From positions 496,001 to 560,000 of the forward strand of contig NZ_JAATJA010000002.1 of the NCBI RefSeq assembly GCF_011927665.1: a DNA stretch of 64,000 nt, read 5' to 3'. The DNA is from Desulfobaculum xiamenense. GTDB lineage: Bacteria > Desulfobacterota > Desulfovibrionia > Desulfovibrionales > Desulfovibrionaceae. The notes beneath the pieces are model-generated. The model was given only the letters and a program-made list of their open reading frames with translations. It did no database searches and was not told where the DNA came from. Shown here one piece after another: positions 8,685 to 62,313 of the stretch; position 1 is the stretch's first letter, and each line of letters starts with the position of its first letter. The translations under genes and the position numbers were made by a program.

Positions 8685-9560
8685 ATGAGTTGTCTTTCCC
8701 ATTTCGGACTTCGCGAACGCCCCTTCGAGGGCAACACGAACGTCCGTTTCTTCTACGTGAGTCAGGGGCATGGCGAGGCGCTGGCCCGGCTGCGCTACCT
8801 CGTGCGCGACCGGAACATGGGCATAGGCGTGCTGACGGGCGAGATCGGCAGCGGCAAGACCATCACTCGCAACGTGCTGGAAAAAATGCTGGATACCGCC
8901 GCGTTCCGGGTGATAAGTTTGGAAAGCTCGAATCTCCCCTTCGTGCATTTGCTGGCGGAGTTCATCCGGCAGTTGGAGGGGCATCCGCCGGACCTGACCG
9001 GGCTGACCAAGTACGAGCTGCTGTTTCGTTTCCGCAAGCTCGTGCTCGACAGGGTACACCTCAAGGGCAGACATCTGGCCGTGTTCCTCGACGAGGTGCA
9101 GCAGATGCATCCGCGTACCCTCGACGAATTGAAGAACCTGACCAACCTGTCCGGCGGCGGCGAGAACCTGTTGACCATGATTCTCGTCGGGCAGCCAGAA
9201 TTTCGCGACGTGCTCAACGCCATGCCGCAGTTGGATCAGCGGGTGAGCCTGCGCTTTCATCTCAATTTTCTCGCGGGAGACGAGGTGGGGCGTTACATCG
9301 AGCACCGGCTGCGCATGGCCGGGCGGCGTAGCGCGGACCCCGTGTTCGAGCCGGAGGCCATGGACCTCGTGTACCGCGAGTCGCAGGGCATTCCGCGCCT
9401 CGTCAACAGGATATGCAAGCTGTCGCTGGATCAGGCCTATTCCCTGCAAGCCGGGGCGGTGAGCGGGGACGTGGTGGCGGGCATCATCGACGACCTGCAT
9501 CTCCAGAAGGGCGATTGCCGCGAAGTGTCGCGTCGGAAGTGGCATTCCTCGGTGCAGTAG
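8685..9560 (+). CDS. ExeA-like AAA ATPase of exopolysaccharide/exosortase loci
   Basis: 291 residues. The N terminus LSHFGLRERPF is the standard opening of ExeA-type ATPases, followed by GILTGEIGSGKT-like Walker A (GVLTGEIGSGKT), Walker B LAVFLDEVQQM, a NLLTMILVGQPEF sensor stretch and RVSLRFHLNFL. These ATPases (the putative secretion ATPase of PEP-CTERM/exosortase loci) sit in polysaccharide export clusters and are thought to act with the export machinery; the exact role is unknown. ATG 8685 is chosen over upstream codons because the conserved N terminus starts there and AAGAGGA precedes it. No exosortase gene is seen here. Confidence 0.87.
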   Translation: MSCLSHFGLRERPFEGNTNVRFFYVSQGHGEALARLRYLVRDRNMGIGVLTGEIGSGKTITRNVLEKMLDTAAFRVISLESSNLPFVHLLAEFIRQLEGHPPDLTGLTKYELLFRFRKLVLDRVHLKGRHLAVFLDEVQQMHPRTLDELKNLTNLSGGGENLLTMILVGQPEFRDVLNAMPQLDQRVSLRFHLNFLAGDEVGRYIEHRLRMAGRRSADPVFEPEAMDLVYRESQGIPRLVNRICKLSLDQAYSLQAGAVSGDVVAGIIDDLHLQKGDCREVSRRKWHSSVQ

Positions 9561-9580
9561 ACGGGCGAACCGGAGGGACG

Positions 9581-10612
9581 ATGGCCGCGGGATTCAGCAT
9601 CTTCGACCTTGAACGGCGCAAGTGGGAACTGGCGCGGGCACAGCGCGAGCGCAAATCCGCGACGGACGCGCCCGAGGGGGACGACGCAGAGCGTACGGCC
9701 ACGCGGGAGCATCCGCAGGAGGTGGCGGAACTGCATGCCGTCCTGCTGGCCGAGGCCGCGCGCATTCGCGACGCCGTGCGTTCGGGCGGCGGGGCCGAGG
9801 CGCGGCCGGCGCTACGGGCCTTCGTGCGCATTGTGGACGAAGGACTGGTGGTGCCGGTCTTCGAGCACGCATCCCTCGACGAGGAACATCGCGACGCCGC
9901 GGCGGCCGCCGTGTACGTGGCCCTCGGCTCCATGCGCATTGGGCTGGGGCTGGGCTACGGACGCCGCCGTCTGGCGTGGCTGGGCCTCGGCGGACTGTTC
10001 GCCAACGTGGGGCTGTGCCGCTTTCCCCGGCGCCTGGAGACCATCGCCCCGGACGCGCTTTCCCCGCAGGACCGCGCCAAGATGCGCACTCATCCGCAGA
10101 TCGGCGCGCAGATCGTGGAGGAGATGGGCGAGGACTACCGCCCCCTGCGCGACGTGGTGCTCCAGATTCACGAGCGGGTGGACGGCACGGGCTATCCCAA
10201 CGGCATCCACGGTAAGGACATTTCCGAGTTCGCGTCGGTCATCGGGCTGGTGGAACATGTGGTGGCCCTGCGCGGCGAGCGGCGCACCGGCAACCGCTTC
10301 ATCCATACTCCGGTCATCAAGCGCGTGGTGGACGAGGAGCGCCGCAGCTTTCCGCGCCGGGTGCTCAAGGAATTTCTGGACCAGATATCGCTGTTTCCGG
10401 TCAACACGTACGTGCGTCTGAACAACGACTCCGTGGGGCGGGTGCTTGCCACCTACAAGGAGCGGCCCATGCGCCCCACCCTCGAACTGCTCTGGGACGG
10501 CAGGGGCAAGAAGAAGGAAACCCCAAAGCTGGTGCATCTGGAGAATTTTCCCCTCCTGCACATCGTCGAGGCCCTCGACGACGGCGACGCGCATCGGCAC
10601 CGTTCCGGCTGA
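9581..10612 (+). CDS. Degenerate HD-GYP domain protein in the polysaccharide operon
   Basis: 343 residues. An N-terminal Arg/Glu-rich region is followed by an HD-GYP-like fold. Where active members read HDIGKxxxP this protein reads FANVGLCRFP, so the HD metal ligands are gone. The later HPQIGAQIVEEM and IHERVDGTGYPNG segments are recognisable, with only one His of the usual HH pair. The C terminus keeps the FPVNTYVRLNNDSVGRV segment seen after HD-GYP domains. It is therefore unlikely to hydrolyse cyclic di-GMP and may act as a binding or scaffold protein (inference). It lies between the ATPase and the export lipoprotein with short gaps and a CGGAGGG ribosome site, so it is probably part of the operon. 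Confidence 0.75.
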   Translation: MAAGFSIFDLERRKWELARAQRERKSATDAPEGDDAERTATREHPQEVAELHAVLLAEAARIRDAVRSGGGAEARPALRAFVRIVDEGLVVPVFEHASLDEEHRDAAAAAVYVALGSMRIGLGLGYGRRRLAWLGLGGLFANVGLCRFPRRLETIAPDALSPQDRAKMRTHPQIGAQIVEEMGEDYRPLRDVVLQIHERVDGTGYPNGIHGKDISEFASVIGLVEHVVALRGERRTGNRFIHTPVIKRVVDEERRSFPRRVLKEFLDQISLFPVNTYVRLNNDSVGRVLATYKERPMRPTLELLWDGRGKKKETPKLVHLENFPLLHIVEALDDGDAHRHRSG

Positions 10613-19034: not shown

Positions 19035-19438
19035 GGCTACCTCTGTGTGCTTCGGATGTGTTGCGAGAGGATGGAGAACGGTGGGTGATTTGTCAATTGT
19101 CCTGTTCGCGGATGATGTGTTGCGCATCTCGTGATGTCTCGTCCGAGGCCATGCGACGGAGCTCATCGTGACGCATGCGCCGTGTGGCATTTCTTACTGT
19201 GGTCTTGTCGGTTGTGCATGATGTTTGGTCGTTGGCGTCGCGGAATCGATGCGTGGACAGCATATATTCTTGTGTGGTAGTGGCTCTGGCCCATGTGAGT
19301 ATGCGGTGCCGTTTGTATGACAGCGAATGAGTCGTTGTGCCATTCGGCAGGAGTACGTCGCAGTTTTGGTCTCGTTGCGTGAGCGCTTGGCGGCGTTTGT
19401 GCCTGGTGGCATGCGTACCTCAACACAGACCAATCGAG
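19035..19438. other. Intergenic region between divergent genes
   Basis: About 400 bases with lower G+C than the flanks. TTGACA reads on the - strand at 19091-19096 and could be a -35 element for the methyltransferase, but no convincing -10 box is seen. A TATATT lies at about 19262. I see no gene, repeat or RNA fold here. Confidence 0.4.
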
Positions 19439-20632
19439 ATGATACGAAAGATTCCCGTTACCGAGCTTCGTCCTGGCATGTTCGTGGTGGATACCGGGCT
19501 GTCGTGGATGGACTATCCCTATCTGTTCGCGGATGAGGGGATCATCGAGTCGTCGGAACAGGTGCTGCGCATCGCCGAGGACTATACTGAGGCCTTCATC
19601 GACACCGAGCGCGGAACCTATGCCACGTTGGACATCGGCGACGGCGGCATGGCCGAGGCGGTGACCTCGGAGGCGGGCGCATCTCCGGCACGCGTGCCGC
19701 TGGCGATGGAGATCGCGCATGCGCGCAAGTTCTACGATGAGTCCCTGACCTTTGCGCGTTCGTTCATGAACGCCGTGGGCGAGGGCGGCGGCATCGACTA
19801 CGAGCGCTCCGAAACCTTCGTCGAGGGCGTCATCGACTCCGTGAGCCGTAATCCCGACGCGTTGGTCAGTATGACCAAGCTTCGGGCCTTCGACGAATAC
19901 ACCTACACCCACTGCATCAACGTGGCCGTGCTGAGCACCGCCTTCGCCGAATTCCGAGGCCTGTCGCGGGCGGATCTCATGGACGTCGGACTGGCCGGGC
20001 TGTACCACGACATCGGCAAGACGCTCATCCCCCCGCGTGTGCTGAACAAGCCCGGACGCTTGACCGAGAGCGAGTTCAACATCATCCGCAAGCATCCCGA
20101 ACGCGGGCTGCTGATGCTGCGAAGCGGCAGGCCGCTGCCGGAGCGGGTGCTTCGTGGCGTGGCGGAGCATCATGAGAAATACAATGGAAGTGGCTATCCA
20201 GCCAGACGAAGAGACGAAGCGATTCATCCCTTCGCGCGCATCATTTCGCTTGCCGACGTGTACGACGCACTGACCAGCCGCCGGGTGTACAAGAACGGCC
20301 TGTCGCCGCACAACGCGTTGCGCATCATGTATGGCATGCGCGGGCAGGATTTCCACCCCGGCAGCGTGGAGCGCTTCATCAAGTTCATAGGCATCTACCC
20401 GGTGGGGGCGCTGGTGCGCCTCGACAACGGGATGCATGCCGTGGTCTGCGGCTCCAACAGCGCGTCACCGCTTCTGCCCGAGGTCATCGTGGCCTTCGAC
20501 CGCGACATGCGTCCCGTCGAACGCATGCGCGTGGACATGGCGGCGCAGGCTGCAGGGGCCGTCCCTGTGGCCATCGAGGCTTGCCTCGAACCCGCCGACT
20601 ACGGCATTCGCACCGAGGAGTACCTCGGCTGA
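19439..20632 (+). CDS. HD-GYP domain cyclic-di-GMP phosphodiesterase (DUF3391-type)
   Basis: 397 residues. The N terminus [22 protein letters not shown] is the short DUF3391-like domain found before some HD-GYP domains. The catalytic part is intact: [48 protein letters not shown], and the trailing [17 protein letters not shown] proteins hydrolyse cyclic di-GMP to GMP. The start at ATG 19439 is chosen from the conserved N terminus; the ribosome site is weak. No sensor or membrane domain is seen, so it is probably cytosolic. Confidence 0.88.
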
Positions 20633-22113: not shown

Positions 22114-25100
22114 TCATCCCGTGGCGATGCGCGGGGCGAGGCATTTTTTCGGCATCCACACGGCAAGGGGCGCATCCGCGTCCATTTCCGCGCCGGAGTT
22201 CGCGCGCACGAAGCCGCGCGGGTCGTCCTTGAGGAGCGCGAGAGCCTTGGGCTTGACGATGCAGAACAGTTCCCCCCAGTTGGTGGCGTAGACGAGGGCC
22301 ACGTCGCCGTAGGTCTTGGCCTCGCGCTCCGTGAGCATGTTCACGGCCACGAGGGCGCGGGTGACGCGCTCTGGGCGCAGCGTCTCCTCCACGGGTGCGT
22401 CGAAGACGTCGGCGCGACCGAACGTGTGGCTCAACGCATCGAGGAGCGAGGCGAGGTCGGGCAGGCTGGCCGGGGCGACGATGTTCTGCCCGGAGAGCTG
22501 CATGCCCGGCGAATGGATGCCATTCCCCGCGAGCCACGCCGCCAGTCGCACCGGATGTCGTTCGCGGTGCATCTCCTCATTGCGCTTGTTCTTCCCCTTC
22601 TGTCCGGCTAGTTCGCCGCTGGCCACCCATTCCGTGGGCTTTCCCGGAGCGTTTTCGCAGGCGATGTGCATGGACGCGAACATGCCGCGCGGCGAGTTCA
22701 TGAACGGGATGTGCATGATCTTGCCGGGGCGCGGCTGGAAGTGTGCGAATATCTTTCTGCCGAGCCGCGTGAGGTCCTCGTCCGTGATGCGTACGCCGTC
22801 CGCCTGCCCGGACATGGCGCGGATGTTTTCGTAGGTCTGGAACATGAAGCGCGCCACCTGCCGGCCAAGCTCCATCTGCCGCGAGAAGCTCTGCACGCCG
22901 TTGACGCTGGCGGGGCGCAGGGACTGCGTGCGCCGCGTCGCGCTGGCGCTTGGCAGTTCCGCCGGGCAGTGCGGGAAGAAGTATTCGATGAAGCTGAACC
23001 CGCGCACGTCGGCGCTGCGGCCCGTGGTCGGCTCCATGCGCGTGAAGCCTGTCCGCTGGTCGAAGGCCATGGCGACTAGCGCTTGCGCCTCGGCCCGGCC
23101 GCCCTCGGCGAAGTGGCGGTTCACCTCACGAAAGAGCACGGCGTAGGGATCGACGCTCCAGAAGTCCCGCAGTCCGGCCGTGACGTTTTCCCGTAAGCGT
23201 TCGCAGATGGTGGGGGCGTCGCGCGAGTCGGTGTAGGCTTCGAGCAGCGCGAATTTCATGATTGACTTGAAGGGGCTTTTCAGGGCCTTCACGATCTGCC
23301 ACAGCGACGCGCCAAAGAATTCCTCCGCCGGGATGCGCGGCAGGTGCCCGATGTCCGCCAGCGCGGCGTCCGGCAGGCCGATGCGCTCCGGCTGCGTTCC
23401 TGCGGCACGGGCGTACGCCTTTTCGTCCGTGCCGGGGCCTGTGGCCCACCATGCCGGTTTTCTGCCCGCCAGACACAGCGCCGTCCTGTAGAATTCCTCC
23501 TTCAGCAGCAGGGCCTGACTCGATCCTGCGCTTTCCTTGTCGCTTAATCCGAAATCGTTGTCGCGCACGCTCGCCATGTCCATGACGAAGAAGTGCAGTT
23601 CCAGAGCGTGCCGCTCCTCGGCGAAGCGCTCGATCGCCGCGAGCTTGTCGCGAAAGGCTTGGCGTGTCGCCTTGTCGGCTGCGGATTCGTCCGCGCACAG
23701 CCACATGTCGATGTCGGAGCGCGCCGTCTGGGCGATGCTGCCCACGCTGCCGATGGTGTACAGGCCCTCGACGCGGATGGGGACCGCCCCCGCCTCGGGA
23801 TCGGGCGTGCGGCGGATGCCGGTCAGCCGTTCCAGCGACAGCAGGCAGTGCCGGGTGGGTACGAAGCCGTCGATGCGGCAGCCCGGAGCCGGAGCGCCGT
23901 CCGCTGGCATGGCCGGGGCCTCCACAAGCGCGGGCAGCGCGGCGAGCATGTCGGCCGCTTCGGGGCCGAGCTTGGCCGCGCACCAGTCCAGCCGCCTGTG
24001 GTTGGCGCGAAGCCAGTGGCCCATGTGGCGGCGCATGTCGCGTATGGCGGCAAAGCGTTCGAGGGCGGTGAGTTGCGCGGCGGGCTTGGCCGTTGCCGTG
24101 GGTTTTGCCCCGATGGGGGCGCGGATGATGGCGTCCTCGGTTCTGTCCCGCGCGGCGCGCAGTTCCGCATCGTCCGCTGTGGTGGCCGTGAACCATGCGT
24201 TGGCGAAGGAGCAGGCGCGCACGGGCGTGTTGACGAAGGTGCACCCCCGCGCGATGCAGCCGTCAAACAGGCAGTCCGTGAGTTCGATGCCGGAGAAGGC
24301 CGCGCGGTCGAGGGTGGCGCGCGAAAGGTCCGTGCCTGCGAATTCGGAACTGCGGATGCTGACGCCGCTTAGCATGGCTCCGAACAGCGTGCTTGCGCTT
24401 ACGGTGGTGTCCTCCACGGCGCAGCCGTCGAGGCGGGCTCCGTCGAGCAGGCATCCGGTCAGGGTGCATGCGCTGATGGTGCCGCCGGAGAGCGTCGCTC
24501 CGGACAGGCGGCAGTCGCGCAGGGTGCAGCCCGAGAGCGCGGCGGTCCGGAAGGCGCAGGCCGTGAAGTCCGTGCGCTCGAAGGTGCAGCGGTCGAAGCG
24601 GACGTTGACGAACTGCGATGCGCTGAAGGTGCAGTCGCGAAAGGTCGCGTTGTCGAAGACTGTTGCGGTGAAGGTCGTGTGTGTGGCCGAGCTTTCGGTG
24701 AAGGTGCCCCCGGTCGATGTGCCCCCGTCCGCGAGGGCGACGAGGCCTTGCGCTGCGGACGAGTGCTCCGTGGCTTGCTTCGCGCCGAATCGTTCGGTGA
24801 CCTTGTGCAGCAGCGAGGTGGCGGGCTGCGCCGTGTGCGCCTCGTCCTGTGGCGCGTCTGGAACCTGTGGGGGCTGGGCCTCGAAGGGCGCGGGCTGCGG
24901 CACATCGTCGATGGTGATGCCTGTGGCGGCGAAGGCTTCCGGATCGATGCGGGCTGCCAGCGCGCAGAGCAGAACGAGGGCCTGCGGACGTGTCGTGTCC
25001 GGCAGAGCCTTCAGGACCGCCTTGATGGTCGTCCACGGGCAGGACAGCGCAAGGGCGGCGGCCTCGTGGGCGAGTGCGGCGTCCGCCTGCCATAGCGAGG

Positions 25101-25935
25101 CCAGCGCGGCAGGAAGGGTGGGCGCGTTCATGGTGCGCAGGGCGCGTGCGGCGGCGATGCGCACCCCCGGATTCTGGTGACGCAGGAAGAGTTCCGCCGC
25201 CTTGCGGGTGACGTCGTCCGCCGCCGGGGTGCCGCCCATGGCCGAGAGGATGTGCGGAATGGTCTCCGGGGTGGCCCCCTTGAGGATGCGCGCCAGCCGC
25301 GAGCTGATGATCGGCGATTCGAGGTGCCCGGCGGTGCGGGCCATGTAGCGGCGCTGCTCCTGATCGAGGTCCATGTTGAGCAGTTCCTGCGCCCACAGGC
25401 CGAAGCGTCCGCGCAGAAGCTCGTTTTGGATGGGGTAGGCCGCGCTGTCGCCGCGCGCGGTGAGTTGCGCCAGAAACATGAGCACGGCCTCGGGGTCGTC
25501 GTTTTCGATCTCGCGCAGGCGGTCGAGGGTGGCGGTCAACTCGCGCGGGGGGATGGCTCTGCGCGTCGCGAGGATGCGGTTCATGAGCGCGAGGTGGCGA
25601 TTGGGGGGCAGCTTGGCGCGAGCGGCCTCGGCCACGCGTTCGGGAAGGCGCGGGTCGCACAGGAGCATGGCGGCGCGCAGCTCTCCTGCCGGGCCGAGCA
25701 TGGCGAGCGCCGAGAAGACGCGGTCCGTGATGGTCGGCTCCGAGGCCACGAGGGCGAGGCTCGACAGGATGCAGGCCGCCACCGACGCCGCGCGGGCGAT
25801 GTCCTGATTGTCGCGGTCCGCCGTGCGGAAGTGCCCGGCGGCCTGCTCCGCCACGGTCTGCACGGCGGCCGGTTTGGCGAGCGCAGCGAAGAGTTCGTCG
25901 GTGAAGCGGGTGAGCAGAAGGGCCGTAGCGTCCAT
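22114..25935 (-). CDS. Class I adenylate cyclase with HEAT-like and pentapeptide-repeat regions
   Basis: 1273 residues. Residues about 1-370 are Ala/Leu-rich helical repeats resembling HEAT/ARM (AAELFLRHQNPGVRIAAARALRTM). Residues about 405-580 are pentapeptide-type repeats (cycles such as GGTISACTLTGCLLDGARLD). Residues about 630-1273 match class I adenylate cyclase (CyaA): a nucleotidyltransferase motif YTIGSVGSIAQTARSDIDMW at about 725 and EEFFGASLWQIVKALKSPFK followed by FALLEAY at about 870. It would make cAMP from ATP. The enterobacterial enzyme is about 850 residues and lacks the repeat regions. ATG 25935 is chosen because upstream codons in this frame run antisense-like through the HD-GYP gene. 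Confidence 0.82.
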   Translation of the reverse strand: MDATALLLTRFTDELFAALAKPAAVQTVAEQAAGHFRTADRDNQDIARAASVAACILSSLALVASEPTITDRVFSALAMLGPAGELRAAMLLCDPRLPERVAEAARAKLPPNRHLALMNRILATRRAIPPRELTATLDRLREIENDDPEAVLMFLAQLTARGDSAAYPIQNELLRGRFGLWAQELLNMDLDQEQRRYMARTAGHLESPIISSRLARILKGATPETIPHILSAMGGTPAADDVTRKAAELFLRHQNPGVRIAAARALRTMNAPTLPAALASLWQADAALAHEAAALALSCPWTTIKAVLKALPDTTRPQALVLLCALAARIDPEAFAATGITIDDVPQPAPFEAQPPQVPDAPQDEAHTAQPATSLLHKVTERFGAKQATEHSSAAQGLVALADGGTSTGGTFTESSATHTTFTATVFDNATFRDCTFSASQFVNVRFDRCTFERTDFTACAFRTAALSGCTLRDCRLSGATLSGGTISACTLTGCLLDGARLDGCAVEDTTVSASTLFGAMLSGVSIRSSEFAGTDLSRATLDRAAFSGIELTDCLFDGCIARGCTFVNTPVRACSFANAWFTATTADDAELRAARDRTEDAIIRAPIGAKPTATAKPAAQLTALERFAAIRDMRRHMGHWLRANHRRLDWCAAKLGPEAADMLAALPALVEAPAMPADGAPAPGCRIDGFVPTRHCLLSLERLTGIRRTPDPEAGAVPIRVEGLYTIGSVGSIAQTARSDIDMWLCADESAADKATRQAFRDKLAAIERFAEERHALELHFFVMDMASVRDNDFGLSDKESAGSSQALLLKEEFYRTALCLAGRKPAWWATGPGTDEKAYARAAGTQPERIGLPDAALADIGHLPRIPAEEFFGASLWQIVKALKSPFKSIMKFALLEAYTDSRDAPTICERLRENVTAGLRDFWSVDPYAVLFREVNRHFAEGGRAEAQALVAMAFDQRTGFTRMEPTTGRSADVRGFSFIEYFFPHCPAELPSASATRRTQSLRPASVNGVQSFSRQMELGRQVARFMFQTYENIRAMSGQADGVRITDEDLTRLGRKIFAHFQPRPGKIMHIPFMNSPRGMFASMHIACENAPGKPTEWVASGELAGQKGKNKRNEEMHRERHPVRLAAWLAGNGIHSPGMQLSGQNIVAPASLPDLASLLDALSHTFGRADVFDAPVEETLRPERVTRALVAVNMLTEREAKTYGDVALVYATNWGELFCIVKPKALALLKDDPRGFVRANSGAEMDADAPLAVWMPKKCLAPRIATG

Positions 25936-25955
25936 GGCGTCTCGTCCCTTGGCCG

Positions 25956-27251
25956 CTAGGACGCGCCCTGTGCGGTTTCCGCGTAGTAGTTGATGTGGGC
26001 GCTCGGGCTCAGGTAGGCGAAGACCTCGCGGGAAAGCTCTTCGGGGCGTAGCGTGCTGGTGATTTCGAGGTCCTTTTCGATGACGAGGTCCACCATGAGC
26101 GCCTCGGCGCGGGGGACCATGGGGTGGTGCATGAGCACCGTTGGCCGCGCGGCGTGGGCGGGTGTGGACGAGATGACCATGCCCTGCTGGCCGTTGGACA
26201 GCTCGACGATGGTCCCCGGCGGATAGACGCCCATGTTGCGGATGAATAGGGACAGGATGCGCTGGTCCAGCGTGTTGCGCTGGCGGGCGTAGAGACTGCG
26301 CAGTGCGTCGTGGGGGGTGAGCGGCGTGGCCTCGCGGTCGTTGATGAGGTGCTCGAAGGCGTTGACCACGGCCACCACGCGGGCCAGCGGCGAGATGGAC
26401 TGGCCGGAGAGGCCTTCCGGATAGCCGGAGCCGTCCATGCTCTCGTGATGCTGGAGGACGACCTTGACCGCTGCGGCCGGAAAATTTGCGAAGTCGTCCA
26501 CGAGGCGCGCGCCGAGTACGGGGTGTTCCTTGCGGTAGCGGGCGATGGCCGCGTTCATGGATGTGCCGCTCTTGCCGCTGACCACGTGCATGGGCATGCG
26601 GCCCTTGCCGATATCGTGGAATAACGCGCCGAGGCCGAGGGCCTGCATGGCCTCGGGACGAAGCCCCAGATCCTTGCCGACCATGAGCGCGAGCACGGTG
26701 ACGTTCAGCGCGTGGTAGTTGCGCGTTTCCTCGCTGGGCTTGGCTCCCATGAGGGTGAGCACGGTGTCGCGCTGGTCGAGGAAGGTGTCCACGAGTGCGC
26801 CCACCACCTGTGCGGCCTCGGCCGCAGCCTCGCCGGAGCGGGCGCTGGCCCGGCGCAGGATGGTCACCACGCTGGACATGGTCTTTTCGTAGCGGCGTTC
26901 GCAGTGCTGGTAGGCGCGGCGGCGCTCGCGGTTGCGCTCCACGGTTTCGCGCCGAAGGCCGAGCAGTTCGGCGGAGACGGGCGTGCGCTCCTGCTCTGCG
27001 GTGGGGGCGTCTGGCGAATCGGCTGGTGGGACCTGTTGTGCGGCGTCTGGCGAGGGGAGCGGCATGCGGTCCGACTTTTCGAGGATGCATACGACCTGCG
27101 TGATGCCTGCCCTGCGGATGGCCTCAATGTCGTCCGTTCCGGCTATCTTGAAGGACTGCCGCTTGGCGAAGCCGGAGCCTATCTTGCGGTCGAGACGCAC
27201 GAACAGCCCCTCCACGAGCTGATCAACGGTCACGACGTATTGGGTCTCCAC
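25956..27251 (-). CDS. HD-GYP domain phosphodiesterase
   Basis: 431 residues. The start is GTG 27251, preceded by GAGGAGGG at good spacing. Residues about 1-60 are a short DUF3391-like domain (VTVDQLVEGLFVRLD), then a Pro-rich linker and a coiled region. The HD-GYP core is intact: LFHDIGKGRMPMHVV, EHPVLGARLV, QHHESMDGSGYPEG, VVNAFEHLIND and the trailing MGVYPPGTIVELSNG. It probably degrades cyclic di-GMP. It lies 20 bases upstream of the adenylate cyclase on the same strand, so the two second-messenger enzymes are probably co-transcribed. Confidence 0.88.
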   Translation of the reverse strand: METQYVVTVDQLVEGLFVRLDRKIGSGFAKRQSFKIAGTDDIEAIRRAGITQVVCILEKSDRMPLPSPDAAQQVPPADSPDAPTAEQERTPVSAELLGLRRETVERNRERRRAYQHCERRYEKTMSSVVTILRRASARSGEAAAEAAQVVGALVDTFLDQRDTVLTLMGAKPSEETRNYHALNVTVLALMVGKDLGLRPEAMQALGLGALFHDIGKGRMPMHVVSGKSGTSMNAAIARYRKEHPVLGARLVDDFANFPAAAVKVVLQHHESMDGSGYPEGLSGQSISPLARVVAVVNAFEHLINDREATPLTPHDALRSLYARQRNTLDQRILSLFIRNMGVYPPGTIVELSNGQQGMVISSTPAHAARPTVLMHHPMVPRAEALMVDLVIEKDLEITSTLRPEELSREVFAYLSPSAHINYYAETAQGAS

Positions 27252-27323
27252 GAATTGCCCTCCTCGATGCCATGCGCCGCGCGAATCAGGATCATCGATT
27301 CTACCGATATTCAATACAATTGA

Positions 27324-27737
27324 CTACGTGCACGCTGGTGTCATGTCAATGCCGTGGGTTTTGTCCTCCGGAGCCTCTTGCGCGCTCATCATGCGCTCGT
27401 AGTGGCCGCCCCAGTTGCCCAGTGCGTCCAGCGCGGGCATGATGCTCGCTCCGAGGTCCGTCAGCGAGTATTCCACGCGCGGGGGAACCTCGGGGTACAC
27501 CACGCGCTGCACCATGCCGTCGGCCTCCAGTTCGCGAAGCTGGCGGGTGAGCATCTTCTGCGTGATGTTCGGCATGCTGCGCCGGAGTTCGCTAAAGCGC
27601 AGCGTGCCGCCGCGGTGCAGGTGGAAGATGATGATGGGCTTCCACTTGCCGCCGATGACCTGAATCGACAGTTCTACGGGGCAATAGTAGCTCTTCGTTC
27701 CGCATTGCCGCAGGGGGCAGGCGGTGTGGTTCTTCAT
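27324..27737 (-). CDS. HxlR-family transcriptional regulator
   Basis: 137 residues. The winged-helix core is typical of HxlR regulators: CPVELSIQVIGGKWKPIIIFHL, then FSELRRSMPNITQKMLTRQLRELEADGMV and the wing PRVEYSLTDLG. An N-terminal Cys pair (CPLRQCG) and the CPVE Cys could sense thiol or quinone stress, as in several redox-responsive members (family knowledge). It is divergent from a nitroreductase and two flavin-reductase-like genes. A palindrome in the divergent gap is a likely operator. The short gap to the HD-GYP gene suggests separate transcripts. Confidence 0.9.
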   Translation of the reverse strand: MKNHTACPLRQCGTKSYYCPVELSIQVIGGKWKPIIIFHLHRGGTLRFSELRRSMPNITQKMLTRQLRELEADGMVQRVVYPEVPPRVEYSLTDLGASIMPALDALGNWGGHYERMMSAQEAPEDKTHGIDMTPACT

Positions 27738-32127: not shown

Positions 32128-33726
32128 TCAGACGGGGAGCGGATTCGCGTCATCGAGCAGGGTTTCCGCCACGGTTCGGAATTCATTTTCCGTTGCGAGG
32201 AAGGCGTCCACGACGTCGGGGTCGAAGTGGCGGCCGCGTTCGGCGATGATGACCTCACGCGCCTTGTCGTGACTCATGGCCTGCTTGTAGACGCGCGGGG
32301 AGGTGAGGGCGTCGTAGACGTCGGCAAGAGCCATGATGCGCCCGGAAAGCGGAATGTGCAGGCCCTGTATGCCGCGCGGATAGCCCGTGCCGTCCCAGCG
32401 CTCGTGGTGCGTCCAGGCGATGTCCTCGGCAGTGCGCAGGAAGGAGTTCATGCCCAGCAGTCTGCATGATTTGCGAAGCGCCTCGCGGCCGAGTTCCGCG
32501 TGGGTTTTCATGATGTCGAATTCCTCGGGCGAAAGTCTGGCGGGCTTGAGGAGGACGGCGTCCGGGATGCCGACCTTGCCGATGTCGTGCAGTGGCGCGG
32601 AGTTGGCAATGCGGTGGATGTGCGTGCGAGTGAGGATGCTCCGGTAACGGGGCGAGCGCGCGAGGGTTTCGGCGAGGATGCGCACGTAGTGGCGCGTGCG
32701 CAGGATGTGGTGCCCGGTGTCGTTGTCGCGGGTTTCAGCCAGCGAGGCCAGCCCGATGATCGTTGCCGCCTGCGTGCGGTCGAGGGAGTCATGCGTGGCG
32801 TTGCGGTCCTGCTGGAGGGCGCAGAACACGAAGAGCGTGGCCGACTTGATGGCGGTGTACACCTGCACGAGCAGGATGCCGGTGTCCGTCGGGTACGGCG
32901 CGAAGACGCCGACGCCGTGCAGGGTGCCGACGATGGCGATGCCCGACGACAGAAGCACGAACAGCGAGATGGACGTCGGCCCGAGGCGCAGGCAGGCCCA
33001 GAAGGAGAGCGGCAGCAGGAAGAACAGCAGCGGATACGTGCTGATGTCGTGCAGGATGAACGTCGTAAACAGGAGCAGGCTGAAGCATATTTCCAGACTG
33101 AACAGCACGATGTCGCCGAGGGTGGGGCGTCTGCTCAGCGTGCGCCGAGGCATTCGCAACACCTCGATGAGCGCCGGGGCGATGGTGAGGATGCTCGTGA
33201 AATCCGTCAGAAACCAGATGAGCGTCCGTTCGAGGGCGTAGAGCGGCGGCTGGTGCTGCGGGATCGCGACGATGAGCATGGACAGCACGGCTGTGCCAAG
33301 GGAAGGGAGCGCCGCGCCGATGCCCATGAACGACAGCGTGTTGCGCACGGTGCCGAGCAGTGTTGCGTTGTCCATGTGCCGCCGCAGGAGCCGAATGGCC
33401 GCGTAGGGCAGAAACGTGTCTGCGATGGGCGCTATGAAGGCGAGGGCCGTCGGCGGGGACTGCATGAGTAGCGCGGCGGCGAGCGATCCGGCAAGGGCCG
33501 AGGGCAGTGCCCGCGAGCCGTAGACCCAGTAGCATCCGAACAGCCAGCCAGCAGACGGCCATAGCGGTGCCACATCTCCCCGCAGTGGCACGGAGAAGAG
33601 GCTCAGGCAGCCGAGGATGAGGCAGCCTCCGCCCGTGACGAGCGAAATGAGCGCCAGTCTGAGCATGTAATGTGGCTTGAATCGGGAGGCCACGAGAGTG
33701 GCGCGCGGCAGGCGGGATGTCGGCAC
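32128..33726 (-). CDS. Membrane HD-GYP protein with MASE1-like sensor domain
   Basis: 532 residues. Residues about 20-300 contain eight or more hydrophobic segments in a MASE1-like arrangement (PLRGDVAPLWPSAGWLFG; a second-half segment LIWFLTDFTSILTIAPALIEV). The C-terminal half is an HD-GYP domain with intact motifs: [58 protein letters not shown] and HFDPDVVDAFL. MASE1 domains are membrane sensor modules; the signal is unknown. It probably hydrolyses cyclic di-GMP in response to an envelope cue. Convergent with the WbuC gene. Confidence 0.88.
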   Translation of the reverse strand: MPTSRLPRATLVASRFKPHYMLRLALISLVTGGGCLILGCLSLFSVPLRGDVAPLWPSAGWLFGCYWVYGSRALPSALAGSLAAALLMQSPPTALAFIAPIADTFLPYAAIRLLRRHMDNATLLGTVRNTLSFMGIGAALPSLGTAVLSMLIVAIPQHQPPLYALERTLIWFLTDFTSILTIAPALIEVLRMPRRTLSRRPTLGDIVLFSLEICFSLLLFTTFILHDISTYPLLFFLLPLSFWACLRLGPTSISLFVLLSSGIAIVGTLHGVGVFAPYPTDTGILLVQVYTAIKSATLFVFCALQQDRNATHDSLDRTQAATIIGLASLAETRDNDTGHHILRTRHYVRILAETLARSPRYRSILTRTHIHRIANSAPLHDIGKVGIPDAVLLKPARLSPEEFDIMKTHAELGREALRKSCRLLGMNSFLRTAEDIAWTHHERWDGTGYPRGIQGLHIPLSGRIMALADVYDALTSPRVYKQAMSHDKAREVIIAERGRHFDPDVVDAFLATENEFRTVAETLLDDANPLPV

Positions 33727-58186: not shown

Positions 58187-60928
58187 ATGCGTCATGGATG
58201 CCAACGTTTCGGATGGACCGGCAATCCGCGTTTCGACGCAAGCGCCTGCTGGCGCATCGCATTTGCGCGGTGCGCGGTGCTGCTGTGCGCGTGTGTGGTC
58301 GTCGCGCTCGCCGCATGCCCGGCGCTGGCGCGGGAGAAGGTCCGTCTGCAACTCAAGTGGCATCACCAGTTCCAGTTTGCGGGGTACTACGCCGCCGTGG
58401 AGAAGGGGTTCTACGCCGATGAGGGGTTTGACGTGGAACTTGTTGAGGGTGGGCCGGACATCGACCCCGTGGCCGAGGTGGTGGCCGGGCGGGCGGAGTA
58501 TGGCGTCGGCACCGCGCAGATCGTCCTTGATTTCATCCATGGCGCGCAGATCGTGCTTCTTGCCGCCATCCAGCAGCATTCCCCCTTCGTGATCATGGTC
58601 CGTAGCGACTCGGGCATCAGCCGCCCCCGCGAACTCGTGGGGCGGCGTTTCATGTATAGGCATTCCATGAGCAAGGCGCTTCTGCTCATGCTGCTGCATG
58701 ATGGCGTCGAGGAGGGGCAGGTGCTGCTCGATCGCGGCGATGACCGCGTGGAGGCGCTGGTGGAGGGGCGCGTGGATGCCGTGGCGGCCTACATGAGCAA
58801 CGAGCCGTTCCTCGTGCGCGAGCGGGGAGTGCCCGTGGTGCTTATCCAGCCGCGAAGCTACGGCGTGGACTTCTACGGCGACTGCCTGTTCGCCTCCCGT
58901 GCGGAGACGCGTGCACACGCCGATAGGGCGCGGCGATTCAGGCGGGCCACGCTACGCGGATGGAACTACGCCCTCGACAACGTCGAGGAGATGATCGGTG
59001 TGGTGCACGACCACTACGACGGGTCACGCAGCCGTGCGCACCTGCGTTACGAGGCGGAATGCCTGCGTGGGCTCATTCTGCCGGCCCTTGTGGAGATGGG
59101 CGACCTGTGTCCGCAACGCCTGCGGCACATCGCCGATGCCTTCGCCGAGGCCGGGCTTGCGCCGCAAGGATGTTCCCTCGACGGATTGGTGATTCGCGAG
59201 GGGTTGCATTCGCCCCTGCGTGATCTGAACAGGGTGCTTCTGGTGGCCTTTTCGGTCGCGGTGGTCGGACTGGCCGCCGCGCTCGGAATGTACGTGTTCA
59301 GCGTCCGGCTCAAGCGGGGCATCGCCGAACGCACGCAGGAACTGGAGGAGACCAACGAGCTTCTGCTTGGTGAGATAGGGGACCGCGCCGCCGCTGAGGA
59401 GGCCTTGCGCCGCAGCGAGGCCAAGTTCCGGGCGCTCTTCGACCAGACCTACCAGTTCTGCGCGCTACTCTCGCCGGAGGGAACGGTGCAGATGGTGAAC
59501 CGCACGGCGCTGGAGTTCATCGGCGTCGAGGCGCGGGACATCGAGGGCCATCCCTTCTGGGACACGCCGTGGTGGAACCAGTCGCCTCTGGCGCAGGAGC
59601 GGGTTCGCGAGGGGCTGCTTCTGGCCGCGCGGGGGAGCGTGGTCTGCGACGAGGCCGAGCACGTGACCGCGCAGGGCGAGGCGCGGGTTATCGATTTCTC
59701 CATCAAGCCCGTGTCTGATGCGGACGGGCACGTCGTGTACATCCTGGCCGAGGGACGTGACATCACCGATCGCAAGCGCGCGGCCGAGGAGACGCGACGT
59801 CTGCGGGCCGTGCTCCAGAACGTCATGGATTCGCTCCCCTCGGTGCTGGTGTCGGTGGACAGGCAGGGGCGGCTGGCCCTGTGGAACCGCAACGCGGCGG
59901 AGGTGGCGGGGCTGACGGAGGGACATTTGGGCATGCCGCTGGAGCAGGCCTTTGCGCTCATGGCCGAGCGTATGGATAGGGTTCACGCCGTGGCTGCTGG
60001 GGGCGAGGCGTTCGTGGAGGTGGCCGTGGCGACGAACGGCGGGGAGCGGCATGTTGACGTGGCCGTGTATCCGCTGGGAGCCGACAAGGGGGCCGTGGTG
60101 CGCATCGAGGATGTCACCGATCGGGTGCGCATCCAGCAGCGGATGATCCAGACCGAGAAGATGATGAGCGTTGGCGGGCTGGCCGCAGGCATGGCCCATG
60201 AGATCAACAATCCGTTGGGCATCATCCTCCAGAGCGGCCAGAATTTGCGCAGGCGTTTCTCCGAGGATCTGCCGATCAACCGCGAGGTGGCCGCGCGGCA
60301 TGGCGTGGACCTCGTTGGCGTTGCGGCCTACATGCAAGAGCGCGGGATTGTGCGCTATCTCGACGCCATCGCCGAGGCCGGGCAACGAGCCGCGCGTATC
60401 GTCAGTTCCATGCTCGATTTCACCCGGACTCCGGAGCGCGGACGAGGTTCGTTTCGCATGAACGAGCTGCTCGATTCCGCTTTGGCGCTGGCGGCTGGCG
60501 ATTCTGGCCTGCGCACGAAGTGCGGCTTCGACGCAATTGCCATCCAGCGGCAGTACGATCCCGATCTGCCGGAGGTGCCATGCTCGCGCGGGCAGATTGA
60601 GCAGGTGTTCCTCAATGTGATCCGCAACGCGGCGGAGGCGCTGTCGCGAGGCAAAAAGGGGGACGAGCCGGTCATTACCGTGTCCACGGCGGCCCGCAGC
60701 GGCTTCGTGCGCGTTACCGTGGCGGACAACGGGCCGGGCATGGACGCGCAGACCGTGCGGCGGGTGTTCGAACCGTTTTTCACCACCAAGCCGCCCGGAG
60801 AGGGCACGGGGCTTGGGCTGTCCGTGGCCTACTTCATCGTCACGGCGACCCATGGCGGGCGCTTTCGAGTGGAGTCCGAACCGGGGCGCGGAACGGCCTT
60901 CATCGTGGAACTGCCGCGAGAGGGCTAG
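58187..60928 (+). CDS. Sensor histidine kinase with THI5/NMT1-like periplasmic domain
   Basis: 913 residues. An N-terminal signal segment is followed by a SsuA/THI5-like periplasmic binding domain at about 48-310 (KVRLQLKWHHQFQFAGYYAAVEKGFYADEGFDVELVEGG). A membrane helix at about 345-370, two PAS domains (about 415-535 and 545-650), then HisKA with H-box AAGMAHEINNPLGIIL and HATPase with NVIRNAAEAL, DNGPGM, FEPFFTTK and GTGLGLS. THI5-like domains bind pyrimidine or other small ligands in transport and sensing proteins. The ligand is unknown. It ends convergently with an HD-GYP response regulator, sharing CTAG at the stops. Confidence 0.9.
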   Translation: MRHGCQRFGWTGNPRFDASACWRIAFARCAVLLCACVVVALAACPALAREKVRLQLKWHHQFQFAGYYAAVEKGFYADEGFDVELVEGGPDIDPVAEVVAGRAEYGVGTAQIVLDFIHGAQIVLLAAIQQHSPFVIMVRSDSGISRPRELVGRRFMYRHSMSKALLLMLLHDGVEEGQVLLDRGDDRVEALVEGRVDAVAAYMSNEPFLVRERGVPVVLIQPRSYGVDFYGDCLFASRAETRAHADRARRFRRATLRGWNYALDNVEEMIGVVHDHYDGSRSRAHLRYEAECLRGLILPALVEMGDLCPQRLRHIADAFAEAGLAPQGCSLDGLVIREGLHSPLRDLNRVLLVAFSVAVVGLAAALGMYVFSVRLKRGIAERTQELEETNELLLGEIGDRAAAEEALRRSEAKFRALFDQTYQFCALLSPEGTVQMVNRTALEFIGVEARDIEGHPFWDTPWWNQSPLAQERVREGLLLAARGSVVCDEAEHVTAQGEARVIDFSIKPVSDADGHVVYILAEGRDITDRKRAAEETRRLRAVLQNVMDSLPSVLVSVDRQGRLALWNRNAAEVAGLTEGHLGMPLEQAFALMAERMDRVHAVAAGGEAFVEVAVATNGGERHVDVAVYPLGADKGAVVRIEDVTDRVRIQQRMIQTEKMMSVGGLAAGMAHEINNPLGIILQSGQNLRRRFSEDLPINREVAARHGVDLVGVAAYMQERGIVRYLDAIAEAGQRAARIVSSMLDFTRTPERGRGSFRMNELLDSALALAAGDSGLRTKCGFDAIAIQRQYDPDLPEVPCSRGQIEQVFLNVIRNAAEALSRGKKGDEPVITVSTAARSGFVRVTVADNGPGMDAQTVRRVFEPFFTTKPPGEGTGLGLSVAYFIVTATHGGRFRVESEPGRGTAFIVELPREG

Positions 60929-62082
60929 CTGTTGGAGTTGTTGGATGCGGAGGGCTTGAGGAAGACGGCTTCGTCGGAATCGTCGGGGTAGGCTTCGCGC
61001 ACGGCGAGCAGGTCGTCGCGCAGGCTCATGAAGACCTCGACCAACTGCGGATCGAACATGCTGCCCTTGTGCTCGGCGAAGTAGTCCGTGATGCGGGACA
61101 TGCTCCACGGTTCCTTGTACACGCGCTTGGAGAGCAGGGCGTCGAACACGTCGGCCATGGCGCCGATGCGTCCGTAGAGGTGGATGCCCTCGCCGACGAG
61201 GCCTTGCGGATAGCCGGAGCCGTTCCAGCGCTCGTGGTGCTGGTAGGCCATGATGGCTGCCGCGCGCATGATGCGCTTTGGCGAGACGCTCAAGATTGTG
61301 TAGCCGATGTTGGTGTGGGTCTTGATGACCTCATATTCCTCGGGCGTGAGGCGGCCGGGCTTGAGCAGGATGGAGTCCGGGATGCCGATCTTTCCCACGT
61401 CGTGCATGGGGGCGATCATGCGCACCATGCGCGCTTCCTCATCGTCCAGTCCGCATCCCTTGGCCAGCAGGTAGGTGAATTCCGCCATGCGGCGAACGTG
61501 GTTGGCCGTCTCCTTGGAGCGCGTTTCCACCACGCCGCCGAGCAGGAAGATGAATTCCTTCTGGGTTTCGAGGATTTCCTGTCGCTGCTGGGCCAGTTCC
61601 TTTTCCGCGCGGATGCGTTCGAGCATCTCGGTCTTGAGCTGTGCTGTGCGGCGCTGCACCTCGCGTTCGAGGTGCTCGTGGTAGAGACGGTTCTCCCTGC
61701 GCAGGCGGGCGCGTTCTAGCGCCTTGTCCATGGAGTGGGCCAGGACGGCCATGTCCTCGATGGGCTTGGTCACATAGTCCCATGCGCCGCGCCTGAGCGC
61801 CTCGATGGAGTCCTCCAGCACGCCCGTGCCCGATACGACGAGAATGGGAACCTCCGGCGCCTCCTTGGTGACATGGGAGAGCACTTCCAGCCCGTCCATC
61901 TCGGGCATGCGCAGGTCGACGAGGATGATGTCCGGCGGGTCGGCGCGGAAGACCTCGAGTCCGGTACGGCCGTTGTTGGCCTGAAGCACCCGGTACCCGC
62001 TGTCTTCGAGGTAGTCGCCGATGCTCTGGCGAATCATATCCTCGTCGTCGATGCACAAAACTGTGGGGGTCTCGTCGTTCAT
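60925..62082 (-). CDS. Response regulator with HD-GYP output (RpfG-like)
   Basis: 385 residues. Residues about 1-125 are a receiver domain (TVLCIDDEDMIRQSIGDYLE; phospho-Asp in DIILVDLRMPEMDG; VSGTG; the Lys in DYVTKPIEDMAVL). A coiled coil follows, then an intact HD-GYP: MHDVGKIGIPDSILLKPGRL, KTHTNIG, QHHERWNGSGYPQG and GAMADVFDALLSKRVYK. Phosphorylation would control cyclic di-GMP hydrolysis. It is convergent with the THI5-like sensor kinase with overlapping stops, so the two are probable partners (inference). Confidence 0.92.
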   Translation of the reverse strand: MNDETPTVLCIDDEDMIRQSIGDYLEDSGYRVLQANNGRTGLEVFRADPPDIILVDLRMPEMDGLEVLSHVTKEAPEVPILVVSGTGVLEDSIEALRRGAWDYVTKPIEDMAVLAHSMDKALERARLRRENRLYHEHLEREVQRRTAQLKTEMLERIRAEKELAQQRQEILETQKEFIFLLGGVVETRSKETANHVRRMAEFTYLLAKGCGLDDEEARMVRMIAPMHDVGKIGIPDSILLKPGRLTPEEYEVIKTHTNIGYTILSVSPKRIMRAAAIMAYQHHERWNGSGYPQGLVGEGIHLYGRIGAMADVFDALLSKRVYKEPWSMSRITDYFAEHKGSMFDPQLVEVFMSLRDDLLAVREAYPDDSDEAVFLKPSASNNSNS

Positions 62083-62313
62083 GTTCGGCTCGGATGTTCG
62101 CGTTCGGGACGTGGGTGTGCCGTGCGCCTTGGCGGACGTAATGCGCGTCGCGGTTCTGGATTCATACAACATATGTATCCGCTTTGCCGTGCCGGGGCAA
62201 CTGTGGGGGGGCGCTTTCGGGCACGGACATCGCAATGGAAGGTGAAAATCGCACAAATGCGGGACGTTCGGACTTTACCCAGGCAGGTGGAGGGCGTATA
62301 TCCCTTGGCCGTC

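Follow-up and report, generated by a model that had tools for sequence, protein, structure and literature searches.

A class I adenylate cyclase with N-terminal helical and pentapeptide repeats in Desulfobaculum xiamenense, and its conserved pairing with an HD-GYP gene

Gene and domain organization of the cyclase

The window analyzed here is a stretch of 64,000 nucleotides from Desulfobaculum xiamenense, a member of the family Desulfovibrionaceae (RefSeq assembly GCF_011927665.1, contig NZ_JAATJA010000002.1, positions 496,001 to 560,000 of the forward strand); positions are counted from its first letter. Its minus strand carries a gene for a class I adenylate cyclase of 1273 residues and, immediately upstream, a gene for a DUF3391/HD-GYP protein. 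Of the whole locus, the part worth testing is the pairing with the HD-GYP gene, which one clade conserves. The open reading frame of the cyclase starts with ATG at 25935 and stops at 22114, and it contains the following features.

22114–25935, minus strand: class I adenylate cyclase gene, 1273 residues (translation, Pfam, NCBIfam and full-length relatives)
24916–25935, minus strand: HEAT-like alpha-solenoid, residues 1–340 (AlphaFold2 model; HEAT_2 matches in relatives)
24733–24915, minus strand: flexible linker, residues 341–401 (predicted local distance difference test score, pLDDT, 42–75 in blocks of ten)
24166–24732, minus strand: pentapeptide-repeat four-sided beta-helix, residues about 402–590 (Pfam, PDB sequence matches, model and VIA-align)
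23446–24012, minus strand: Adenyl_cycl_N nucleotidyltransferase domain, residues 642–830 (Pfam, E = 6.5e-44)
23701–23751, minus strand: catalytic motif GSVGSIAQTARSDIDMW, residues 729–745 (sequence; alignment with E. coli CyaA and the family rows)
22117–23445, minus strand: remaining class I catalytic region, residues 831–1273, without an E. coli-type C-terminal extension (alignments)

The whole class I catalytic region spans residues about 615–1273. Adenyl_cycl_N (PF12633) was matched with 150.7 bits and Adenylate_cycl (PF01295), which starts at residue 860, with 93.6 bits (E = 1.5e-26); the curated Pfam cut-off is 27 bits for both. Three Pfam pentapeptide models were also above cut-off, with the best stretches between about 412 and 560, including Pentapeptide_4 from residue 412 (E = 2.8e-20). 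The first-pass annotation, made from the letters alone, had described a three-part protein of helical repeats, about 175 residues of pentapeptide repeats and a CyaA-type cyclase with a recognizable nucleotidyltransferase motif. The three parts are confirmed by Pfam and by the AlphaFold models, the cyclase by its above-cut-off Pfam domains and the motif by an intact GS...DxD signature at residues 729–745; the pentapeptide part is present as well, its length being nearer 185 residues. The best NCBIfam match, NF006981, scored 341.7 bits, well below its equivalog cut-off of 802, and by its sequence score the protein is classed as a homolog, not an equivalog, of the NCBIfam class I models. Judged from the sequence, cyclase activity of the protein is likely.

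The only HEAT signal in the window protein, HEAT_2 at residues 223–297, is sub-threshold (E = 0.0078, 16.9 bits against 27.7). Among 38 family N-terminal halves, picked with a pentapeptide profile and including that of the window protein, seven matched HEAT_2 at E 0.01 or better, the best at 1.9e-6. With the HEAT model below cut-off and an alpha-solenoid predicted, we call this part HEAT-like only. Two other readings of the frame were rejected: a chance or spurious frame is ruled out by the agreement of full-length homologs, Pfam matches and models, and a longer 1658-residue reading from 27090 would cross the HD-GYP gene, while the loci in which the two genes are linked keep them separate.

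Predicted structure

AlphaFold2 models were built for each half of the protein on alignments of relatives; the mean pLDDT values of the two halves are 89.4 and 87.2. Residues 1–338 are modelled as 21 helices, with pLDDT of 78–97 in blocks of ten. Beyond the solenoid, the model contains a poorly ordered linker (about 340–400), a four-sided beta-helix (about 402–587), one helix and a mixed alpha/beta catalytic region. Compared to the solved pentapeptide proteins HetL, QnrB1 and MfpA, the modelled beta-helix gave VIA-align Z scores of about 20–25. The four-sided beta-helix is the same in all of them; here, however, it is predicted to lie inside a longer chain, with a helical solenoid before it and an enzyme after it, and by the model only the fold is common to this part and the gyrase-type pentapeptide proteins.

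The structure-comparison matches were dominated by the pentapeptide part, and the solenoid and the cyclase were barely probed by VIA-align. Foldseek matched the catalytic half weakly to two nucleotidyltransferases, AAD(9) (E = 1.8e-4) and AadA (E = 1.2e-3), at a root-mean-square deviation of about 11 in each case. Because no convincing sequence match to the cyclase part was found among PDB chains, a structure of this part would be informative.

Comparison with other class I adenylate cyclases

The best-known class I cyclases are those of E. coli and its relatives, in which C-terminal control is tied to sugar uptake; E. coli CyaA is controlled by EIIA-Glc. With the family profile, the catalytic region of the window protein aligns at 259 bits with residues 10–560 of the 848 residues of E. 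coli CyaA; the two enzymes have the GS...SDxD, FF..D and EFYRTA motifs in common. Different from the window protein, E. coli CyaA has about 290 further C-terminal residues, which find no counterpart here, and it lacks the N-terminal repeats; the first-pass statement that the enterobacterial enzyme has neither repeat part is thus borne out by alignment. The E. coli-type C-terminus is also missing in the paralog from the same genome and in three other aligned relatives. A profile search with PTS_EIIA_1 gave no match in the D. xiamenense genome, whereas the E. coli control was positive. Since the repeats are N-terminal and the genome has no EIIA-Glc-type match, the controlling signal is probably different from that of E. 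coli. The sulfate-reducer cyclases form a large subfamily with N-terminal repeats in place of C-terminal control.

In other members of the phylum and in Nitrospinota (examples L183 and L191), short class I cyclases have the same catalytic region but lack the repeats; the 638-residue NF006981 is the curated model that fits the window protein best. Cyclases of Desulfobacterales, such as that of Desulfobacter vibrioformis (L205), consist of about 480 N-terminal residues followed by pentapeptide repeats and the cyclase; their N-terminus is diverged and aligns only weakly (hhalign probability 43.7, E = 2.4e-4).

Distribution of the architecture

A class I cyclase with a solenoid and pentapeptide repeats is the ordinary form in the family. 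PF12633 is present in 90 of 199 family genomes, and 96 of the 106 listed matches lie in open frames of at least 1200 residues. Of the ten matches in shorter frames, eight come from assemblies with at least 190 contigs, and the remaining two, L088 and L068 in genomes G046 and G053, are copies that are broken or partial. For a closer comparison, 42 family cyclases were taken from 40 loci plus the window and were picked by the cyclase region alone; the 40 loci (L051–L090) were hand-chosen to cover genera and multi-copy genomes and are not a random sample. The pentapeptide profile matched 41 of the 42 and the N-terminal profile 40 of the 42, both profiles, like the one used for picking cyclases, having been built from the 13 rows in which an HD-GYP gene is linked; the fragment L068 matches neither, and L086 misses the N-terminal profile only. 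The catalytic aspartates are nearly always kept, D741 in 38 and D743 in 41 of the 42 rows, the window included.

A second set gave the same picture. A closed frame of at least 1100 residues with a cyclase match over 300 bits is present in 54 of 80 named loci; all 54 contain the pentapeptide part and 41 match the N-terminal profile, with Solidesulfovibrio, Pseudodesulfovibrio, Humidesulfovibrio and Desulfovibrio among them. Outside the family, 395 genomes of the phylum were sampled, and 34 of the 45 above-cut-off matches lie in frames of 760 residues or less, the other 11 being longer. Pentapeptide repeats were found in two of nine retrieved long non-family loci (L105 and L115) and in none of the other seven, which were cut at 1.5 kb flanks. 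The fusion is therefore a family-level norm: the architecture is already common in the family, which speaks against its novelty there, and uniqueness to the D. xiamenense protein is ruled out.

An older census described class 1 cyclases as cytoplasmic and of relatively narrow distribution, in the part of the paper available (PMC1183210). The open-licence library that was searched yielded no paper on class I cyclases that carry pentapeptide or HEAT repeats, wider searches being judged by title among the papers listed.

Two paralogs were noted in this survey. The D. xiamenense genome itself encodes a second solenoid-pentapeptide class I cyclase (L051, G000:C2:1145780-1149274), which is about 31% identical, lies outside the linked branch described below and has no HD-GYP neighbour within the 18 kb examined. 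In G041, a genome with four class I matches, one unlinked paralog (L065:8620-12594) is degenerate, with I and R at the Asp columns of DxD.

Conserved pairing with an HD-GYP gene

The upstream gene and the gap that separates it from the cyclase are as follows.

25956–27251, minus strand: DUF3391/HD-GYP gene, immediately upstream of the cyclase (Pfam, sequence, conserved linkage and site residues)
25936–25955, minus strand: 20-base intergenic gap from the HD-GYP stop to the cyclase ATG (sequence)

The first-pass annotation had pointed to the HD-GYP gene 20 bases upstream; the gene is there, and its conservation across relatives indicates that the neighbourhood is not accidental. Among the 199 family genomes, 29 matches to the HD-GYP protein score over 340 bits. 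In 26 of these a cyclase domain lies downstream on the same strand and contig, and the other three are at contig ends, with the N-terminal part of a cyclase directly downstream. The 340-bit line was set after the scores were known, and score alone does not separate linked from unlinked proteins: the best unlinked match reached 324.6 bits, whereas the linked proteins of G041 and G040 scored 286.8 and 256.7 bits, the latter being cut by a contig end. These two were added because of their cyclase neighbour, which brings the linked set to 31; G167, with two overlapping pieces on a contig other than that of its cyclase, was excluded from the HD-GYP counts. Away from cyclase genes there are HD-GYP relatives that score up to 325 bits, and 22 such unlinked relatives, selected from the next-best scores and not all of them, served for comparison.

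Where the two genes are adjacent and were measured, they are 6–285 bases apart on the same strand; nine named loci are linked at 18–285 bases, and these are the same cases as loci already counted. In G067, a glycosyltransferase family 2 gene (L232:5732-6565) lies on the same strand between the HD-GYP and cyclase genes. In the tree of the 42 cyclase regions, all 13 linked rows form one branch (support 100/99), and linkage requires one change on the tree against a mean of 11.3 after shuffling. Within 4 kb, HD-GYP is the sole neighbour family present in all 13 linked loci; the next cluster, in nine loci, is merely the opposite strand of the HD-GYP gene itself, and the others occur in at most four. 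Among the long cyclases of Desulfovibrionales and Desulfobacterales, only this one clade has the upstream HD-GYP gene.

Conservation of the solenoid in the linked clade

The solenoids were compared by pairwise alignments at matched cyclase similarity. Of the 42 sequences 41 were used, one, presumably the 556-residue fragment L068, failing the length filter, and only pairs with 33–50% cyclase identity were kept (67 of 78 linked and 314 of 378 unlinked pairs). The cyclase scores per residue are almost equal, 1.59 for linked and 1.60 for unlinked pairs, and those of the pentapeptide part are 0.84 and 0.70. The N-terminal solenoid, in contrast, scores 0.76 per residue in linked pairs and 0.25 in unlinked pairs. 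The ratio of solenoid to cyclase score is 0.485 in the linked clade, compared to a maximum of 0.23 in 2000 random 13-row subsets of unlinked sequences and to 0.168 and 0.229 in two natural unlinked subclades. These values suggest that an additional constraint acts on the solenoid in the linked clade, with the HD-GYP protein as the obvious candidate partner. That the repeats may regulate the cyclase had been suggested by the first-pass annotation; the result in support is that the solenoid, far more than the pentapeptide part, is specially conserved where the genes are linked.

A linked but catalytically degenerate genus

One genus includes three genomes (G147, G111 and G174) whose linked cyclase lacks the GS and the first Asp of the motif and reads GAAGS or GAAGT, then PLD or PFE. 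The three proteins (L076, L078 and L229) are predicted pseudo-cyclases, yet the HD-GYP gene is retained beside each of them. G147 and G111 each carry a second cyclase with an intact motif (L075 and L077), and G174 has a second copy too. A further genome of this genus, G022, contains a single, unlinked cyclase and no HD-GYP match at the threshold used; it is the fourth. Judging from these sequences, the HD-GYP/cyclase pair seems to have a use beyond the synthesis of cyclic AMP (cAMP) in this genus.

Active site of the HD-GYP protein

Site residues were numbered after PmGH (PMC4159591). H189, H221, D222, H250, H276 and H277 are kept in all 31 linked HD-GYP proteins, whereas the metal ligand D305 is replaced by Asn in 21 of them, the window protein included. 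The GYP motif reads GFP in 27 of the 31 linked proteins, and Phe at this position occurs in none of the 22 unlinked relatives. The window copy has the HD pair, H250, HH and GYP all in place; its changes are D183 to E, D305 to N and D308 to E.

According to the available part of the PmGH study, D305A lowered but did not abolish hydrolysis of cyclic di-GMP (c-di-GMP), replacing D183, D308 or K225 by alanine had an effect like that of losing a metal ligand, and alanine mutations in the GYP motif caused no substantial drop in activity (PMC4159591). In Desulfovibrio vulgaris, another HD-GYP protein of a sulfate reducer, DvhD, has lost metal ligands and is described in the portion available as a c-di-GMP receptor rather than an enzyme (PMC13090378). 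DvhD is a membrane PAS/HD-GYP protein without HD and HH; different from it, the window protein keeps HD, HH and H250 and is changed only at D305, and at D183 and D308 to Glu. Because PmGH D305A is partly active and the DvhD site as described there is far more degraded, we call the window site drifted, not dead; with the His ligands and the HD pair intact, a clearly dead enzyme is unsupported. From its sequence, the HD-GYP protein may bind rather than cleave c-di-GMP. The combined control by cAMP and c-di-GMP that the first-pass annotation proposed is plausible, but it was overstated, as the HD-GYP protein lacks one metal-ligand Asp.

A model for the HD-GYP/cyclase pair

We propose that the cyclase is one half of a two-gene unit. 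It would make cAMP under a control region that is N-terminal instead of C-terminal; the upstream DUF3391/HD-GYP protein would dock on the N-terminal alpha-solenoid and report c-di-GMP to the cyclase, by binding and perhaps by slow hydrolysis, and the pentapeptide beta-helix, set between solenoid and catalytic region, would serve as a rigid spacer or platform. The proposal starts from the computed domains, the intact motif, the missing E. coli tail and EIIA-Glc-type match, the pairing, the clade-specific conservation of the solenoid and the drifted HD-GYP site; what we infer from there is that the cyclase is active, that the two proteins touch, that c-di-GMP is the signal and what sign the effect has. 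For this model, in short a cAMP synthase with the HD-GYP protein docked on its solenoid to sense c-di-GMP, we regard the chances as evenly balanced. A fuller version is tentative and stands at clearly less than an even chance: the pair would be a physical node in which the docked HD-GYP protein, with a weakened metal site that reads c-di-GMP more than it cleaves it, sets cAMP synthesis by the N-terminally controlled cyclase, and in one genus the cyclase would be a pseudo-enzyme with control perhaps reversed.

If the proposal holds, two second messengers may be wired together, and the pairing is a concrete, testable candidate for direct cAMP/c-di-GMP coupling. In Shewanella putrefaciens, cross-talk between cAMP and c-di-GMP also involves direct protein contact between both pathways, as far as the available part of the report describes; that contact is between effectors, whereas here it would be between a cyclase and an HD-GYP protein (PMC8938473).

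Several observations weigh against docking of a c-di-GMP sensor. In plain identity the effect on the solenoid is modest, with a ratio of N-terminal to cyclase identity of 0.749 in linked against 0.645 in unlinked pairs and up to 0.705 in random subsets. Linkage marks one clade and counts as one observation, and conservation of the solenoid could have another cause. The pair persists in the degenerate genus despite the lost catalytic residues, which leaves room for outputs other than cAMP. Degeneration of the HD-GYP site is only partial, as its intact His ligands and HD pair attest; D305 is kept in 10 of the 31 linked proteins and is Asn in 8 of the 22 unlinked relatives as well, and the change is therefore not tied to linkage. 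By analogy with the residual activity reported for PmGH D305A, the upstream protein may be an ordinary phosphodiesterase.

That last point leads to the alternative that survives best, in which the two proteins are co-transcribed without contact: an ordinary HD-GYP phosphodiesterase would lower c-di-GMP while the cyclase raises cAMP, and co-expression would serve as a lifestyle switch. The invariant His ligands and HD pair, the partial activity of PmGH D305A (as in the available part of PMC4159591) and the short same-strand spacing all fit this alternative. Without contact, however, special conservation of the solenoid in the linked clade is unexpected, and the pair outlasts the loss of the cyclase motif in one genus; the window copy, in addition, combines D183E, D305N and D308E, at two of which positions alanine acted in PmGH like loss of a metal ligand, although Glu is milder. 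On balance we think co-expression alone rather unlikely.

Control could also run in reverse, the cyclase-like protein regulating the HD-GYP protein through binding of ATP or cAMP, with cAMP synthesis secondary or absent in some lineages. The degenerate genus favours this alternative, as its linked cyclases have lost GS...DxD while the HD-GYP gene is kept, and the intact motif resides in the second cyclases of G147 and G111; it is nonetheless improbable, given that the full motif is intact in the window cyclase and in most of the 42 rows.

A synthase/hydrolase pair, in which the HD-GYP protein acts on cAMP or a related nucleotide as phosphodiesterase or sensor, is very improbable: GYP is implicated in c-di-GMP recognition, and its replacement by GFP in linked proteins only would mean that the substrate pocket changed with linkage, but the window copy keeps GYP, the alanine results in PmGH suggest that the change may mean little, and we know of no HD-GYP cAMP phosphodiesterase.

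Genomic setting and cyclic-nucleotide context

In the D. xiamenense genome 30 GGDEF matches were found, from which c-di-GMP is likely to be present in the cell. The same genome has 12 matches to the cyclic nucleotide monophosphate (cNMP)-binding domain, which are possible cAMP receivers, and four class III cyclase matches; a Crp-type helix-turn-helix was found in two of nine cNMP-binding proteins scanned.

The probable start of the HD-GYP gene is GTG at 27251, preceded by GAGGAGG; the open frame extends to TTG at 27314. A sigma-70-like site lies at 27326–27298, before the HD-GYP gene, and it is weak, one site being found against 0.4 expected. Further upstream lies one more gene.

27324–27737, minus strand: HxlR-type regulator gene, upstream of the HD-GYP gene (Pfam)

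Among the 40 other loci compared, the order HxlR/HD-GYP/cyclase occurs in L052 and L070 only.

Two cNMP-binding proteins encoded elsewhere in the genome have unusual partners. A 399-residue protein (L252:583-1782, G000:C1 near 1663058) joins a cyclic-nucleotide-binding domain at residues 10–94 to a FliG C-terminal domain at residues 311–394 and is possibly a cyclic-nucleotide-responsive flagellar-motor protein, judging from its domains. The other (L250:1-1857, G000:C3 near 236489) is a SulP-type sulfate permease with a STAS domain and a C-terminal cyclic-nucleotide-binding domain. The window itself encodes four further HD-GYP-like proteins, at 19337–20632, 9413–10612, 60925–62256 and 32128–33726; the one at 9413–10612 seems to be without the HD pair (NV in the alignment), and the one at 19337–20632 is a canonical DUF3391 HD-GYP protein encoded just 5' of mnmE.

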